Shown: piece after piece, positions 6,364-61,436 of the stretch
Layout: every line of letters begins with the position of its first letter
Position numbering within the stretch: the first letter of the stretch is position 1
DNA from: Geothrix sp. 21YS21S-4
GTDB taxonomy: Bacteria > Acidobacteriota > Holophagae > Holophagales > Holophagaceae
Direction of reading: 5' to 3'
Length of the DNA stretch: 64,000 nt
Assembly (NCBI RefSeq): GCF_030845995.1
Contig: NZ_CP132719.1
Span: 248,001-312,000 of the forward strand
Notes under the pieces: model-generated
Told to the model about the DNA's origin: nothing
What the model saw: the letters and a program-made list of their open reading frames with translations, nothing else
Databases searched by the model: none
Position numbers and translations under genes: made by a program

Positions 6364-6386
6364 CGATCCGGGCGTGGCCCCACTTC

Positions 6387-6494
6387 GCATTCAAAGAATA
6401 AGGATCACCACCAAGACACAAAGGCACTAAGAAAAGCTCTTTTGAAGTTCTTGGTGCCTTGGTGGTGAAAAGAAAAATCTTGGGTCTTGATCGC
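6387..6494. repeat. Interspersed inverted repeat, copy 1 of the CACCACCAAGAC family
   Basis: The segment begins GCATTCAAAG, carries ATCACCACCAAGACACAAAG, then TTCTTGGTGCCTTGGTGG and GTGAAAA, and ends GGGTCTTGATCGC. The arms CACCACCAAG and CTTGGTGGTG are inverted copies. The same start, arms and end occur at 15441-15563, with shorter relatives at 12982-13046 and 60195-60285. It fills the space between the convergent EnvC-like and pilC genes. AT-rich relative to its surroundings. Confidence 0.8.
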
Positions 6495-10273: not shown

Positions 10274-10326
10274 TCCCAGATTTAGGGTTGACCATCGACG
10301 GCATCCACTACATCTTGGGGTCTACT

Positions 10327-10499
10327 CCATGGTGAGCCCGGGTCTCCCGGGTTTCCAAAAGGGAAGCCGGTGCGAATCCGGCGCTGCCCCGCAGCGGTAA
10401 GGGGGAACGAGGATCCATAAGCACTGGCCCCGCGCGGGCTGGGAAGCGGGATCCGAGGAACCTGGCTACCAGAGCGCCCCCCAGCCCGAAGACCTGCCA
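10327..10499 (+). promoter_or_regulatory. Cobalamin (B12) riboswitch
   Basis: The conserved core is clear: GGGAAGCCGGTGCGAATCCG at 10361-10380, then GCGCTGCCCCGCAGCGGTAA, AACGAGGATCCATAAGCACT, GGGAAGCGGGATCC, and a closing CCCGAAGACCTGCC ending at 10498. This is the order of the AdoCbl riboswitch including the B12 box. The interval 10274-10326 before it holds the promoter by inference. The expression platform (10500-10655) has GC-rich stems around CCGCCGCCTTCGCGGCC and a strong AGGAGG at 10648 just before the nrdD ATG, so translation or transcription control are both possible. High cobalamin should switch nrdD off. Confidence 0.93.
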
Positions 10500-10655
10500 T
10501 GGATCCGCCCTCCGGCGGCGCTCGTCGTTTCGAGGGAAAACGGCGGCGGCGAAATCCCAGTTCCATCCGTTCGGCCCATCCGCCGCCTTCGCGGCCGGCG
10601 GGTCCCGTTCCCATCTCCCATCGATTGTCCGCGCCGCCGCGGACCAGGAGGTTCC

Positions 10656-15431: not shown

Positions 15432-15440
15432 TACCGCTTT

Positions 15441-15563
15441 GCATTCAAAGCTAAAGATCACCCCCAAGACGCTAAGGGCACCAAGAAACGCAGCCTCAGT
15501 GGGGAAAGCTGTTCTTGGTGCCTTGGTGTCGTGGTGGTGAAAAAAAGCCTGGGTCTTGATCGC
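15441..15563. repeat. Interspersed inverted repeat, copy 3 of the CACCACCAAGAC family
   Basis: Begins GCATTCAAAG and ends GGGTCTTGATCGC exactly like the 6387 copy, with the arms CCCCCAAGACGC...GGGCACCAAGAAA and TTCTTGGTGCCTTGGTG. The insert between the arms differs. It overlaps the 3' end of the kinase gene at 15496-15563, where its reverse strand is read as coding sequence. Confidence 0.82.
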
Positions 15564-21863: not shown

Positions 21864-21896
21864 GCACACAGGCCGGGCTCTGCCCGGCCTGTGTGC
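21864..21896. terminator. Perfect 15-bp hairpin between rpmA and obgE
   Basis: GCACACAGGCCGGGC and its exact reverse complement flank a TCT loop. It lies between the rpmA stop and the obgE start, directly beside the repeat at 21897-21943. No run of U follows on the minus strand, so this is more likely a processing, pausing or repeat-derived structure than a full rho-independent terminator. Confidence 0.55.
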
Positions 21897-21943
21897 GGGG
21901 GCTCCGGGGGTGTGCGCGCAAGCGCGGAACCCCCGGACGACAT
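21897..21943. repeat. GC-rich palindromic element abutting the rpmA stop, copy A
   Basis: Plus strand GGGGGCTCCGGGGGTGTGCG, then CGCAAGCGCGGAACCCCCGG and ACGACAT; the next base begins the reverse stop codon of rpmA. TCCGGGGGT and ACCCCCGGA on the minus strand pair as a long stem with an inner GCGC stem. Nearly the same sequence abuts the rplU stop (22279) and another lies inside rlmN (33772). Confidence 0.85.
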
Positions 21944-22204
21944 TCACCCCTCGATGGGATCGATGTGGATGAAGCGGCCGGACTGGCCCTTGTCCTGGAA
22001 ACGGACCTTGCCGTCGATGAGGGCGAACAGCGTGTGGTCCTTGCCCATGCCGACGTTGATGCCGGCCTTGAACTTGGTGCCGCGCTGGCGGACCAGGATG
22101 GAACCGCCGGTGACCTGCTCACCGCCGAATTCCTTCACGCCGAGGCGCTGGGAGTGGGAATCGCGACCGTTGCGGCTGGAACCTACGCCTTTTTTGTGAG
22201 CCAT
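21944..22204 (-). CDS. rpmA: 50S ribosomal protein L27
   Basis: 86 residues beginning [19 protein letters not shown], the classic L27 start whose basic tail reaches the peptidyl-transferase centre, followed by [20 protein letters not shown] and a typical short beta core. There is no N-terminal cleavable extension of the Firmicutes type. Between rplU and obgE; the palindromic element lies immediately after its stop codon. Confidence 0.98.
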
Positions 22205-22278
22205 GGAAGTACCTCATTTAGATGCGGAATCGTGGACTGGGAGAGGATGCGAGCGCGGGTTTTACCCGGGCGAGCATC

Positions 22279-22323
22279 GGGGGCTCCGGGGGTGTGCGCG
22301 CAGCGCGGAACCCCCGGACAGCA
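22279..22323. repeat. GC-rich palindromic element abutting the rplU stop, copy B
   Basis: GGGGGCTCCGGGGGTGTGCG, CGCAGCGCGGAACCCCCGGA, CAGCA: the same element as at 21897, one base shorter in the loop, again touching the stop codon of a ribosomal protein gene. The two copies therefore form a matched pair of 3' untranslated hairpins in the rplU-rpmA-obgE transcript. Confidence 0.85.
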
Positions 22324-22635
22324 TCAGCCCTTGATGGCCTTGATGCGGACCTCGGTGAAGTTCTGGCGGTGGCCCTGGGTGCGCTGGTAGGTGGTGGTGC
22401 GCTTCTTCTTGAAGATGATCACCTTCTTGGCGCGGTCATGGGTGATGACCTCGGCCTCGACCGTGGCGCCGGCCAGAGTGGGCTTGCCCACCTTCAGGTC
22501 GCCGTCGTTGTCGATGAGGAGCACCTGATCGAAGGTGACGGCCTGCTTGGGCTCCTGCTCCAGCGTTTCCACGCGGAGAACGTCGCCTTCGGTGACGCGG
22601 TACTGCTTCCCGCCGGTCTTGATGATTGCGTACAT
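22324..22635 (-). CDS. rplU: 50S ribosomal protein L21
   Basis: 103 residues from the ATG at 22633-22635, beginning MYAIIKTGGKQYRVTEGDVL, the diagnostic L21 opening, and containing KVIIFKKKRTTTYQRTQGHR near residue 72, the rRNA-binding signature (K.RK...R..GHRQ). A longer frame upstream lacks family similarity. First gene of the rplU-rpmA-obgE-nadD-rsfS series; the AGAGG upstream of the ATG serves as ribosome-binding site. Confidence 0.97.
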   Translation of the reverse strand: MYAIIKTGGKQYRVTEGDVLRVETLEQEPKQAVTFDQVLLIDNDGDLKVGKPTLAGATVEAEVITHDRAKKVIIFKKKRTTTYQRTQGHRQNFTEVRIKAIKG

Positions 22636-32930: not shown

Positions 32931-34151
32931 TCAGCGCGGTTGCGGTCGCTCCCTCACCAGCTGGCCGCAGGCGCCCGCCACGTCCTGGCCGCGGCTGCGG
33001 CGAACGGAGACGGAAAGCCCGGCTTCCGACAGCAGGTGGCACAGGGCGCCGATGCGGGCCTCGTCCGGGGATTCGAATCCGCTGCCCTCGTGGGGATTGA
33101 AGGGAATCAGGTTCACCTTGGAAGGGAAGCGGCGGGCGAAGGCGGCGAGGCGCCGGCCGTCCTCCAGCCCGTCGGTGACGCCCTTCAGCAGGACGTACTC
33201 CAGCGTGACGCGCTCGCCGGATTGGAGCGGGAACCGCCCGAGGGCGTCGGCCAGGGCCTCCAGGTTCCACACCCGGTTCACGGGCATGATGGCCGAGCGG
33301 TGGAGGTCCGTGGTGGCGTTCAGGCTGAGGGCCAGCCGGGGGCGCTTCGAGAAGGCGCCGAGCCGCTCGATTCCGCTCACCAGGCCCGAGGTCGAGACCG
33401 TGATGCGGCGGGGCGGAATGGCGAGGCCCTTGGGATCCGTCAGCACCTCGAAGGCCGCCATCAGGTGATCGAGGTTGTGGAGGGGCTCGCCCATCCCCAT
33501 GAACACCAGGTTCACGGGCCGGCCCTCGGGATGGCCGTGGTGGTTCAGCAGCGCCACCGCCTGCCCCACGATCTCCGCGGCGGACAGGTTGCGGACGATC
33601 CCCATCTGCCCCGTCGCGCAGAACGTGCACCCCATCGCGCAGCCCACCTGACTGGACAGGCATAGCGTGACGCGGTCGAGATCCTCCGCCTCCGCCTGGG
33701 TGGACGCGGGGCGGAAGACGGACCTTTGAGCAGGGGACAAGCTCCGCCCAGGCTTCGCCTGAGCGGAGCGCGGGGGCTCCGGGGGCGTAGGCCGCAGGCC
33801 GGACCCCCGGACAACATAAGGCATATGCACGCCCTCCACCTGGGCGCCGTCCGCCAGCTCGAAAGCGTGCTTGGTGGAGCCGTCGGAGGAGGGGAGGCTC
33901 TGGACGATGCGCGGCCAGACCAAGTCCACGTCCGTCTCCAACCGGGCGCGAAGGGCTTTGGAGAGGCTGGAGAACTGGTCCCAGGCGGTCCATCGCTGTC
34001 GGTAGAGGCCGTCGAAGAGTTGGGCGCCCCGCCAGGCGGGCTCGCCGAGGGAGGCAGCCAGCGCCTTCAGGTCCGGCAGGCCCATGCCCGTTGCGTTGGG
34101 ACGCGCAACGATTCCGGCTTCGGGAGCCGGCGCATCCCAGGCCTGGGCCAT
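32931..34151 (-). CDS. rlmN: Dual-specificity 23S rRNA/tRNA m2A methyltransferase RlmN, with an internal repeat-derived insertion
   Basis: Radical-SAM methyltransferase for A2503 of 23S rRNA and A37 of tRNAs. 406 residues; usual length is about 350-370. The radical SAM motif is CAMGCTFCATGQMG near 180 (CxxxCxxC), with the SSQVGC segment before it, FMGMGEPLHN near 225, and a C-terminal VSVRRSRGQDVAGACGQL with the catalytic cysteine. Between EGVHMPY and DRVTLC there are about 43 extra residues (RGSGLRPTPPEPPRSAQAKP and SLSPAQRSVFRPAS among them) encoded by the palindromic element at 33729-33819. In other RlmN proteins these two blocks are only a few residues apart. GAGG precedes the ATG at 34149-34151. 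Confidence 0.93.
   Translation of the reverse strand: MAQAWDAPAPEAGIVARPNATGMGLPDLKALAASLGEPAWRGAQLFDGLYRQRWTAWDQFSSLSKALRARLETDVDLVWPRIVQSLPSSDGSTKHAFELADGAQVEGVHMPYVVRGSGLRPTPPEPPRSAQAKPGRSLSPAQRSVFRPASTQAEAEDLDRVTLCLSSQVGCAMGCTFCATGQMGIVRNLSAAEIVGQAVALLNHHGHPEGRPVNLVFMGMGEPLHNLDHLMAAFEVLTDPKGLAIPPRRITVSTSGLVSGIERLGAFSKRPRLALSLNATTDLHRSAIMPVNRVWNLEALADALGRFPLQSGERVTLEYVLLKGVTDGLEDGRRLAAFARRFPSKVNLIPFNPHEGSGFESPDEARIGALCHLLSEAGLSVSVRRSRGQDVAGACGQLVRERPQPR
33729..33819. repeat. GC-rich palindromic element inside rlmN, copy C
   Basis: GGGGGCTCCGGGGGCGTAGG, CCGCAGGCCGGACCCCCGGA and CAACAT at 33772-33816 match the elements beside rpmA and rplU in both arms, with a different loop. A second hairpin, GCTCCGCCCAGGCTTCGCC/TGAGCGGAGC at 33741-33769, lies next to it. 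The block is a multiple of three overall and keeps the rlmN frame open. Confidence 0.85.
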
Positions 34152-50502: not shown

Positions 50503-50696
50503 GTCGGGGCCCTTTCAGGAGGAAAGGCGAGAGACATTGAAGATGGTTGGGTCAGAAGCTACGATCCTGAATTTCCCCGCCCAAGGCAAGCGAAGTTCCC
50601 AGAACCCCATCCCCTTTTTGCTGCATGTGCGCGGGCTTTCGTACAAAAAAAGGGAGCCATGGGGCTCCCTTTTTTGAAAATCCATCAGCGCCAGGA

Positions 50697-50774
50697 CTAG
50701 TCGGTGGCGAAGGGGAGGAGTGCGATGTTGCGGGCGCGCTTGATGGCTTCCACGAGCTCGCGCTGGTGGATGGC
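50697..50774 (-). pseudogene. Copy A of the rpsR 3' end (25 codons and stop)
   Basis: Reads [25 protein letters not shown], stop, identical in protein to the S18 C-terminus. It differs from rpsR at two codons (Ala GCG to GCA, Ala GCT to GCC), both synonymous. Upstream the frame remains open for more than 60 codons, but I see no ATG, GTG or TTG in it, so it is probably not translated on its own. Confidence 0.85.
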
Positions 50775-50895
50775 AGAAGGCGACCGGTCCCGAAGGGACG
50801 TCGAGGCTCCGGGGGAGCCTTGACGAGGGAGGCTTTCGTGCGGAAAAAAAGGGAGCCGTGTGGCTCCCTTTTTTGAAAATCCATCAGCGCCAGGA

Positions 50896-50973
50896 CTAGT
50901 CGGTGGCGAAGGGGAGGAGCGCGATGTTGCGGGCACGCTTGATGGCTTCCACGAGCTCGCGCTGGTGGATGGC
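50896..50973 (-). pseudogene. Copy B of the rpsR 3' end (25 codons and stop)
   Basis: Same peptide as copy A and as rpsR itself. Differs from rpsR at two codons (Ala GCT to GCC, Arg CGC to CGT), both synonymous. The sequence 5' of the Ala codon (TCGCCTTCTGCC) replaces the rpsR sequence at that junction exactly as in copy A, so A and B share one junction. Confidence 0.85.
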
Positions 50974-51043
50974 AGAAGGCGACCGGTCCCGAAGGGACGT
51001 CGAGGCTCCGGGGGAGCCTTGACGAGGGAGGCTTTCGTGCGGA

Positions 51044-51075
51044 AAAAAAGGGAGCCGCGTGGCTCCCCTTTTTGA
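51044..51075 (-). terminator. Rho-independent terminator of rpsF-rpsR
   Basis: On the minus strand CAAAAAGGGGAGCCACGCGG and CTCCCTTTTTTT form a stable stem (GGGAGCC/GGCTCCC) with flanking A and T runs about 30 bases after the rpsR stop. Two more copies lie in the array at about 50845-50876 and 50645-50676, giving three consecutive terminators. Confidence 0.88.
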
Positions 51076-51094
51076 AAATCAATCAGCGCCAGGA

Positions 51095-51361
51095 CTAGTC
51101 GGTGGCGAAGGGGAGGAGCGCGATGTTGCGAGCGCGCTTGATGGCTTCCACGAGCTCGCGCTGGTGGATGGCGCACACGCCGCTGGTGCGGCGGGGCAGG
51201 ACCTTGCCGCGCTCGGGGGTGAAGGCCTGGAGGGTCTTCACGTCCTTGTAGTCGATCATGAGGGACTTCTCGACGCAGAACTTGCAGAACTTGGCGCGTC
51301 GTCCCCCAAAAGCCTTCTTCTTCTTGGGCTTGCCCTTCTTGGCATCGGCGCGGCGCTTCAT
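51095..51361 (-). CDS. rpsR: 30S ribosomal protein S18
   Basis: 88 residues; lysine-rich N-terminus, [20 protein letters not shown] near 25 and [20 protein letters not shown] near 52, which contains the S18 signature (R.T.GVC..HQR.L..AIKRAR). The pair of Cys at 26 and 29, with a later Cys, suggests the zinc-binding form. ATG overlaps the rpsF stop (51358-51361). rplI, often next in this operon, is absent; instead the array of rpsR 3' ends follows. Confidence 0.97.
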
Positions 51362-60194: not shown

Positions 60195-60285
60195 AAAAAA
60201 AGACTCACCACCAAGACACCAAGGGCGCCAAGAAAAGCCAGTCTTGGTGTTGTTCTTGGCGCCTTGGCGGTGTTCATTTTTTGAA
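60195..60285. repeat. Interspersed inverted repeat, copy 4 of the CACCACCAAGAC family
   Basis: CACCACCAAGACACCAAGGG followed by CGCCAAGAAAAGCC, with the right half TTCTTGGCGCCTTGGCGGTG. The arms CACCACCAAGAC...GGCGCCAAGAA and TTCTTGGCGCC..GCGGTG are inverted copies with compensating changes (CACC/GGTG to GCC/GGC). It lies between the acetyltransferase and the sod-array terminator. Confidence 0.78.
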
Positions 60286-60334: not shown

Positions 60335-60427
60335 TTACTTGCCGAAGCGTTTGGAGACTTCGCTCCACTTGATGTTCTCGGCGAAGGCATCGAGGTACTT
60401 CGCGCGGGCGATGCCGTAATCGACCAT
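60335..60427 (-). CDS. Copy 1 of the sod C-terminus, possible 30-codon mini-gene
   Basis: ATG at 60425-60427 begins MVDYGIARAKYLDAFAENIK, followed by WSEVSKRFGK and TAA: the exact C-terminal 30 residues of the superoxide dismutase. GGAG lies six bases before the ATG (GGAGCCTCC), unlike the parent gene where Met is internal. Compared with sod, five codons differ (Val, Arg, Ala, Asp, Lys), all synonymous. Whether it is translated is unknown. Confidence 0.4.
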   Translation of the reverse strand: MVDYGIARAKYLDAFAENIKWSEVSKRFGK

Positions 60428-60595
60428 GGAGGCTCCGTCTCCAGGAGCGCGGGCCCGAAGGGCAAGCGAATGGGAGCACAGCGCGGGGCGCTGTGCGATA
60501 GACGGAGGGCGTGCGAGGGGGGAAACAGGCGGGCCCCCAAGCGGGGGCCCGTCCATGAGCACGCGTGGAGAAGCGCTGGGACGCCCGCGCGCGAC

Positions 60596-60688
60596 CTACT
60601 TGCCGAAGCGCTTGGAGACTTCGCTCCATTTGATGTTCTCGGCGAAGGCGTCGAGGTACTTGGCGCGGGCGATGCCGTAATCGACCAT
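60596..60688 (-). CDS. Copy 2 of the sod C-terminus, possible 30-codon mini-gene
   Basis: ATG at 60686-60688 begins the same 30-residue peptide as copy 1, preceded by the same GGAGCCTCC, and ends TAG in place of TAA. Relative to sod it has three codon changes (Val, Arg, Lys), all synonymous, and shares the Val and Arg changes with copy 1. The identical new 5' junction shows that copies 1 and 2 derive from one event. Confidence 0.4.
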   Translation of the reverse strand: MVDYGIARAKYLDAFAENIKWSEVSKRFGK

Positions 60689-60857
60689 GGAGGCTCCGTC
60701 TCCAAGAGCGCGGGCCCGAAGGGGCAAGCGAATGGGAGCACAGCGCGGGGCGCTGTGCGATAGACGGAGGGCGTGCGAGAGGGAAATAGGCGGGCCCCCC
60801 AAGCGGGGGCCCGTCCATGAGCACGCGTGGAGGGGCGCCGAGACGCCCGCGCGCGAC

Positions 60858-61436
60858 TTACTTGCCGAAGCGCTTGGAGACTTCGCTCCACTTGATGTTC
60901 TCGGCGAAGGCGTCGAGGTACTTGGCCCGGGCGATGCCGTAATCCACCATGAACGCGTGCTCCCACGAGTCCAGGATCAACAGCAGGTCCTGTTCGATGG
61001 GGATGCCCAGGTGGTGCTCGGCGAAGAAGTAGGTGTGCAGCTTCCCGTCCTTGCGGTTGCGGGTCAGCATGGCCCAGCCGGGCCCGCACATGGCGGCGGC
61101 CTTGAGGTCCGCGACGACCTTGTCCTTGCCGCCGGCCTGGTCCAGCGCGACCTTCAGCCCGGCGCTGATGTCCTCGTCCGCGCCCAGGTTCTCGAAGTAG
61201 AACTCGTGCAGGAAGGAGCCGTTGAAGGCCACCGCTTCGCGGCGCTTCAGTTCGCTGTACTCGTTGAAGGAATAGTTCGCTTTGCTGTTGTCGATGGCGC
61301 CCAGCTTCTCCTCGATTTCATTCAGCTTCGTGATGTAGCCCTTGTAGAGGGTGAAGTGCTGTTCGAGCTGGGAGTCGCTGAGTCCCTTCAGGGCGCCGCC
61401 CTTCAGGTGATCGTAGTTTTTGGCGGTATAGGGCAT
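60858..61436 (-). CDS. sodB: Superoxide dismutase (Fe/Mn family)
   Basis: 192 residues. Metal ligands can be placed: His in LEQHFTLYKGYITKLNEIEE near 26, His in FNGSFLHEFYFENL near 76, then Asp and His in LDSWEHAFMVDYG near 158. The first ligand region (QHF.LY.GY..KLNE) is typical of the SodA/B subgroup of Acidobacteria and Deltaproteobacteria as I recall. Converts superoxide in the cytoplasm. First of an oxidative-stress block with catalase and Dps upstream. Its 3' end is tandemly repeated downstream. Confidence 0.95.
   Translation of the reverse strand: MPYTAKNYDHLKGGALKGLSDSQLEQHFTLYKGYITKLNEIEEKLGAIDNSKANYSFNEYSELKRREAVAFNGSFLHEFYFENLGADEDISAGLKVALDQAGGKDKVVADLKAAAMCGPGWAMLTRNRKDGKLHTYFFAEHHLGIPIEQDLLLILDSWEHAFMVDYGIARAKYLDAFAENIKWSEVSKRFGK

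Follow-up and report, generated by a model that had tools for sequence, protein, structure and literature searches.

The superoxide dismutase gene (sod) of Geothrix sp. 21YS21S-4 lies on the minus strand of the analysed window, a 64,000-nt stretch of DNA, and is followed in the sense of the gene by two further copies of its own 3′ end. We refer to the duplicated host stretch as T (its tail at sod being the last 30 codons plus the stop codon) and to the GC-rich folded element of ~75–90 nt that separates the copies as E, so that the array reads T1-E1-T2-E2-T3, with a terminator present in T1 and T2 and T3 consisting of the tail alone. The sod product matched the NCBIfam model NF041312 with an E value of 3.2e-17, under the model's own curated cut-off.

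60858..61436, minus strand: sod, superoxide dismutase gene of 192 codons, an open reading frame with a match to NCBIfam NF041312, superoxide dismutase [Mn]
60773..60951, minus strand: T1, the end of the gene itself, with its final 30 codons, stop, 3′ UTR and intrinsic terminator
60690..60772 (borders approximate), minus strand: E1, folded element of type A separating T1 from T2, with a match to covariance model R2 at 60683-60772
60511..60689, minus strand: T2, tail copy (60596-60689) with UTR and terminator
60429..60510 (borders approximate), minus strand: E2, second type A element, with an R2 match at 60422-60510
60335..60428, minus strand: T3, tail copy only, its homology ending right past the stop codon

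Alignment confirmed the three tails on the coding strand (60335-60428, 60596-60689 and 60858-60951) and their intervals of 261 and 262 bases. An earlier note on this DNA had given each tail a downstream spacer of about 168 bases, which we found only twice, as the third tail runs into unrelated sequence with a terminator of its own. The two E copies are near-identical to each other and scored 74.6 bits (E1, E value 6e-14) and 73.7 bits (E2, 9.5e-14) against R2, whose building alignment includes these window copies. Tandem Repeats Finder (TRF) gave the array a score of 1111 (2.4 copies, 94% matches), far above the threshold of 50, which rules out chance. Two observations speak against an assembly artefact: the source genome is a single contig of 3,078,440 bases (3.08 Mb), and the named isolate Geothrix fuzhouensis SG12 carries a sod array of three tails and two elements that repeats every 261 bases and is ~86% identical in DNA to the window array, plus two reversed type B elements. 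The window also holds a dispersed intergenic repeat, CACCAAGACACCAAGGGCGCCAAGAA, with an inverted partner (60197-60272, 6380-6494 and 15434-15563), and several relatives (L068, L072) carry similar sequence 3′ of sod.

Other genes carry such arrays too, a point that the earlier note had put forward as a check: within the same window, rpsR does so at 50634-51172 (TRF period 199, 2.7 copies, score 1001), and further genes do so elsewhere.

51095..51361, minus strand: rpsR, ribosomal protein S18 (TIGR00165, E value 7e-26)
51030..51172, minus strand: T1, last 25 codons, stop and terminator
50974..51029 (borders approximate), minus strand: spacer element 1, with hairpin AGGCTCC-CCC-GGAGCCT
50833..50973, minus strand: T2
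50775..50832 (borders approximate), minus strand: spacer element 2
50634..50774, minus strand: T3

As at sod, the two rpsR E copies are near-identical to each other. CRISPR arrays are also regular successions of repeat, spacer and repeat, in which the repeat is duplicated with each insertion and unique spacers separate identical repeats. By contrast, the spacers of the sod and rpsR arrays are near-identical instead of unique, and their "repeats" are locus-specific gene ends.

Using the rpsR unit as a query in the source genome, we found the hairpin AGGCTCC-CCC-GGAGCCT in two further tandem arrays, at a MacB-like permease gene and a DJ-1/PfpI gene, and all seven exact copies of this hairpin in the genome sit in such arrays. 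An exact copy is present in 35 of 47 genomes of the genus vs 2 of 30 other genomes of the family. Forty loci of relatives revealed two main element types, A (that of sod) and B, from which we built the models R2 (type A, 21 sequences) and R1 (type B, 33 sequences). R1 matched 46 of the 47 genus genomes. R2 matched 63 of 77 genomes of the family, with matches in 9 of 11 genera, none in genera g2 and g11 and hardly any in g3 and g9. The source genome contains at least 17 R1 and at least 13 R2 matches with E values no higher than 0.1, which fall in about 19 places besides rpsR; since not all candidates were scored, the number of copies in each genome is a minimum. In 16 of the 19 places we found a direct repeat at E or around it, and in two of these (L190, L195) the repeat seems to be the element itself. 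Among named records, the type A core was found in Geothrix, Holophagaceae or an unassigned Acidobacteria MAG (12 stretches), and viral contigs searched with one exact type B pattern gave no match. Rfam at the gathering threshold returned no model for E in the window and six loci, its only hits being a cobalamin riboswitch (window 10313-10515, 103 bits) and two tRNAs. We consider it probable that the sod array is one site of a Holophagaceae family of short (~70–90 nt), GC-rich, folded interspersed elements.

Type B forms an extended hairpin, with 97.5% of the cells in its alignment paired. Ten pairs showed covariation, with 47 cells changed on both sides vs 12.5 in shuffled alignments, and none of 500 shuffles reached the values seen for paired cells, covarying pairs or changed cells, the structure having been taken from the same alignment; a weaker measure that counts further pair types was equalled by 11 of 500 shuffles. 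In the outer stem, 94.9% of cells pair, with changes on both sides in four of six pairs. Covariation was counted for type B alone, and the type A model R2 holds a 9-pair core hairpin only.

The link between E and duplication extends well beyond the two arrays of the window. Distinct hairpins with a CCC or CCT loop and a length of at least 19 nt numbered 76, and 63 of them had an abutting direct repeat, vs 9 of 342 positions drawn at random from these loci; this speaks against the refuting outcome that the earlier note had named, arrays present only by chance at random genes. Some of the 63 repeats contain E itself, in arrays. As the 76 hairpins included several per array and loci partly found through the hairpin, we repeated the test on loci found with R2, which were chosen regardless of T, and a repeat was present at 13 of 23 testable loci (6 of 29 were dropped as too short). 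T measures 14–254 bp (median 58). The distance from the hairpin to the downstream T is near-constant within each class: among 46 type-B-like hairpins it is 18–24 nt in 33, and among 17 others it is 35–48 nt in 14. Many hairpins off these distances are array members whose repeat includes E. At many loci one E lies between two T copies rather than in an array. Duplication is not obligatory, since 13 of the 76 hairpins and 10 of the 23 R2-only loci have E without T. In addition, by eye, E sits within other hairpins or T copies with T not duplicated at L085, L092, L183 and L203.

A scan for direct repeats that used neither model found 9 pairs in 400 kb of the source genome, 5 in 200 kb of genome G079 and 3 in 200 kb of genome G065, counts that give no contrast. 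The scan excluded overlapping repeats, so that the window's own arrays score zero. Six of the nine source-genome pairs were inspected, of which five were gene-end duplications by eye and one lay between genes; the one control pair inspected (G065, L261) is a tandem repeat that we cannot explain. Of the five G079 pairs, four may be protein repeats, as their period is a multiple of three and their spacers are AT-rich.

The earlier note took the multiplication to be a matter of gene 3′ ends, and these are indeed frequent. Besides sod and rpsR, duplicated 3′ ends belong to genes for HPPD, two MacB-type permeases, GlmS, a Rid-family protein and an Xaa-Pro dipeptidase, and to DJ-1/PfpI, GroEL, SprT-like, YebC-type and SucB-type genes; the 400-kb scan added those of acyl-CoA dehydrogenase, NADH dehydrogenase 49-kDa and an NFACT-domain gene. 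However, 3′ ends do not define the phenomenon, because such spacers also separate duplicated 5′ parts of uvrA (L078) and a MerR-type gene (L037/L082/L110), as well as duplicated tRNA ends (L087, L093, L107), and the same scan contained two 5′-end duplications by eye. What held was the note's view that the duplication is not arbitrary and that an element is involved. L239 (18986-19325 onward) carries tandem copies of the 5′ end of a biotin-carboxylase-like gene (named by eye), the repeat comprising the start codon plus ~12 codons, a mirror image of the sod case. L087 (1302-1375 onward) and L093 carry part of a tRNA gene plus flank, repeated with type A elements near a contig end, which may matter for assembling these genomes. 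The window contains a different GC-rich hairpin repeat at the stop-codon regions of rpmA- and rplU-like genes (21896-21969 and 22278-22349, named by eye; also 33770-33820), 86% identical between the two copies, and the type A element in L085 is inserted in an apparent repeat of this kind.

The T border lies within 4 nt of the stop codon at 22 of 40 loci and at −7 to +204 in the rest, so we no longer assumed that the stop codon is always where T stops. Among 21 genes with a 3′-end T and a clear E strand, 18 have E in the orientation of the gene (sign test, P 7e-4), a tally that leaves out five ambiguous loci, the exceptions being L194, L196 and the acyl-CoA dehydrogenase gene (L236). Replication strand as the determinant of E orientation was rejected, as E runs with the leading strand in 9 and against it in 11 of 20 source-genome places (rough skew). 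Co-orientation, T borders near stop codons or just past terminators, and the missing leading-strand bias would all suit a transcript-linked route, in which a reverse transcriptase copies the E RNA, jumps to the 3′ end of a neighbouring mRNA and writes T-E. Against this stand the three genes with opposite orientation, the duplicated 5′ parts and non-coding T, and the distribution of the reverse transcriptase family PF00078, which has no match in the source genome and matches in 15 of the 47 genus genomes; we regard this route as very unlikely. Group II introns and retroelements differ from E in the same respect, as a reverse transcriptase goes with them and PF00078 has no match in the source genome.

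Comparison with relatives revealed empty and differently filled sites. Among 20 sod loci, obtained from 20 of 25 genomes with a match, four have the insertion of the window, three have a different E with another T border, three have a reversed E without sod duplication, nine have a single tail and one is cut by a contig end. Among 19 rpsR loci examined of 29 returned, one is the window's own array, three share its first element and have others in addition, three have a shorter T behind another element, eleven are empty and one is cut. T is single at empty loci. Geothrix campi SG10 carries three E at sod that differ in sequence. As sod and rpsR are filled differently in relatives, the same gene ends must have been hit more than once.

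These comparisons bear on two simpler accounts. Hairpins promote replication slippage and unequal exchange, and the near-identical units of the sod, rpsR and Rid gene arrays resemble the products of either, so that a plain tandem duplication by slippage, merely promoted by the hairpins and without a mobile element, might be invoked. But duplication of a T-E unit would not yield the common arrangement of a single E between two T copies, and E is a conserved family whose members sit at unrelated loci, one and the same gene bearing different insertions from genome to genome; we hold slippage as the whole explanation to be highly improbable. Each of the two full sod units contains an intrinsic-terminator-like hairpin, which would suit repeated terminators or tails selected to protect or regulate sod mRNA. 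Given the single tail at nine of 20 sod loci, and that unrelated genes, tRNAs and 5′ parts are struck as well, such a selected function appears extremely improbable.

The extra T copies differ from T1 in an unexpected way. The 40 loci tallied were chosen for an open frame of 60 codons or more that continues into T1 as far as its stop codon, and from these we compared 38 coding-end pairs, setting aside two with frameshifts (L052, L170), together with the window's own sod T1/T3. One frame was used per locus, repeat views L134, L147 and L158 were dropped, L078 and L167 were uncounted, and a tail list obtained by regular expression was kept out as it selects conserved copies. The 39 pairs contain 73 synonymous and 22 non-synonymous codon differences between T1 and another T, where a neutral extra copy would lead one to expect ~62% non-synonymous (P 8e-15 for independent pairs, the true significance being weaker because several pairs are orthologous). 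Their stop codons show 10 stop-to-stop swaps and three losses. By gene (n=14), synonymous differences exceed non-synonymous ones in 10, equal them in 3 and are fewer in 1. Seven loci of doubtful frame (L054, L117, L144, L149, L191, L194, L196), left out together with second frames at kept loci, have 9 synonymous and 14 non-synonymous differences by themselves, and including one frame from each gives 82 vs 36 (P 2e-12).

To judge from these codon counts, it looks as if extra copies recently were working gene ends, whereas after a plain insertion T2 would be expected to decay as non-coding DNA, and mostly synonymous differences would not be predicted. Three readings fit the excess. The ordinary one is that T1 or T2 is exchanged with functional alleles from other strains; another is repeated insertion and loss; and a bold one has the extra copies serving now and then as the working gene end. 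All three look alike in a comparison of one genome per species. HPPD copies within one genome share odd codons that differ between genomes, which is a pointer to exchange between copies.

In its boldest form, E plus T would be a gene-free integrative unit of 100–300 bp supplying a replacement gene end, both copies passing through use and thereby being coding-selected, a reading that we consider unlikely. The course of events might be that of a micro-integrative element, in which incoming T1 and E are joined at T, T1 replaces a displaced T2, and excision restores T2. Using both copies would hold them under coding selection, as the synonymous excess suggests, and T starts inside the gene and often ends close to the stop codon, or at a tRNA 3′ end (L107); prophage-type elements insert at the 3′ ends of icd or tRNA genes. 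Phage 21 and e14 duplicate the end of icd with synonymous differences, and the element's copy restores the gene. Those elements, however, are large, encode an integrase and use one fixed site, whereas E, at ~80 nt, occurs at many genes and, at 70–90 nt, is too short for an integrase gene; an element-side copy that restores the gene end was found at the 40 loci, which were chosen for their open frame. Moreover, E is without genes and also occurs at 5′ parts, and T differs per gene, with no common recombination core noticed. T2 is not always kept, as it is frameshifted at the GroEL loci L052 and L170 and the doubtful loci look neutral (0 vs 4 with the stop lost at L194). Orthologous pairs are not independent, and if T1 or T2 were often exchanged with functional alleles from other strains, the same pattern would result. 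We judge this course of events to be quite unlikely.

Taking these observations together, the explanation that we hold probable is a folded element of REP/MITE-like kind, non-autonomous, which on insertion duplicates a long stretch of its target, with array growth and exchange following later. E would be, or would have been, mobile, and its insertion may re-copy 14–254 bp of target, either as one long duplication of the target or through upstream re-priming by the free end of E; recombination between T copies could afterwards enlarge T-E-T arrays. Both mobility and the copying are deduced from comparing loci and not from an insertion caught in the act. That T so often straddles a gene end may reflect the survival of those insertions that spare one intact copy of the gene. 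As for an enzyme, neither candidate family tracks the E family: Y1 transposase (PF01797) matched in only 5 of the 47 genus genomes, and reverse transcriptase is distributed as given above. Six IS200-type (L118-L123) and six reverse-transcriptase loci (L124-L129) scanned with R1 and R2 contained no full-length E, with a single 19-nt R2 fragment among the twelve. The source genome itself carries five IS200-type (Y1) transposase copies of equal score (contig positions 1121467, 1771272, 2192230, 2445343 and 2777555), and 42 of the 47 genus genomes are without a Y1 match.

The preferred explanation relates E to two known classes without placing it in either. REP and REPIN sequences, mobilised by the RAYT transposase (TnpA-REP), resemble E in being short, palindromic, intergenic, multi-copy, non-coding and sometimes clustered or nested. 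E differs in being longer (70–90 nt) and in its long host duplications, and the RAYT link is absent, Y1 transposase occurring in 5 of 47 genus genomes vs 46 of 47 for type B. GTAG repeats are tied to RAYT genes and CGTC repeats lack a dedicated transposase, according to parts of one REP study, the main text of which does not use the word "duplication" (PMC3733652). By eye, no constant GTAG or CGTC tag stands at the palindrome foot in alignments A1 and A2; the rpsR spacer holds CGTC ahead of its hairpin. Bacterial MITEs are likewise non-autonomous, with complementary ends and flanking direct repeats. In the sections consulted of one account, MITEs have terminal inverted repeats of ~4–30 bp, are typically AT-rich and are flanked in younger copies by the direct repeats of target duplication (PMC10969869). 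The outer stem of type B provides terminal inverted repeats, but the E family is GC-rich, and its T of 14–254 bp, which some E lack entirely, contrasts with a short target duplication of fixed length. Because the RAYT link and the short fixed duplication are both missing, we file E under neither REP/REPIN nor MITE. The open-access literature gave no recognised description of such elements, with subscription papers and preprints outside the scope of the search.

The target duplications of such elements are usually short. If our reading is true, small folded repeats in a bacterial family duplicate tens to hundreds of host bases per insertion, and the resulting copies of gene ends can mislead annotation and assembly. 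Gene ends that are empty in some species and occupied once or several times in others would then provide a comparative system for the enzyme involved and for the exchange of gene ends.
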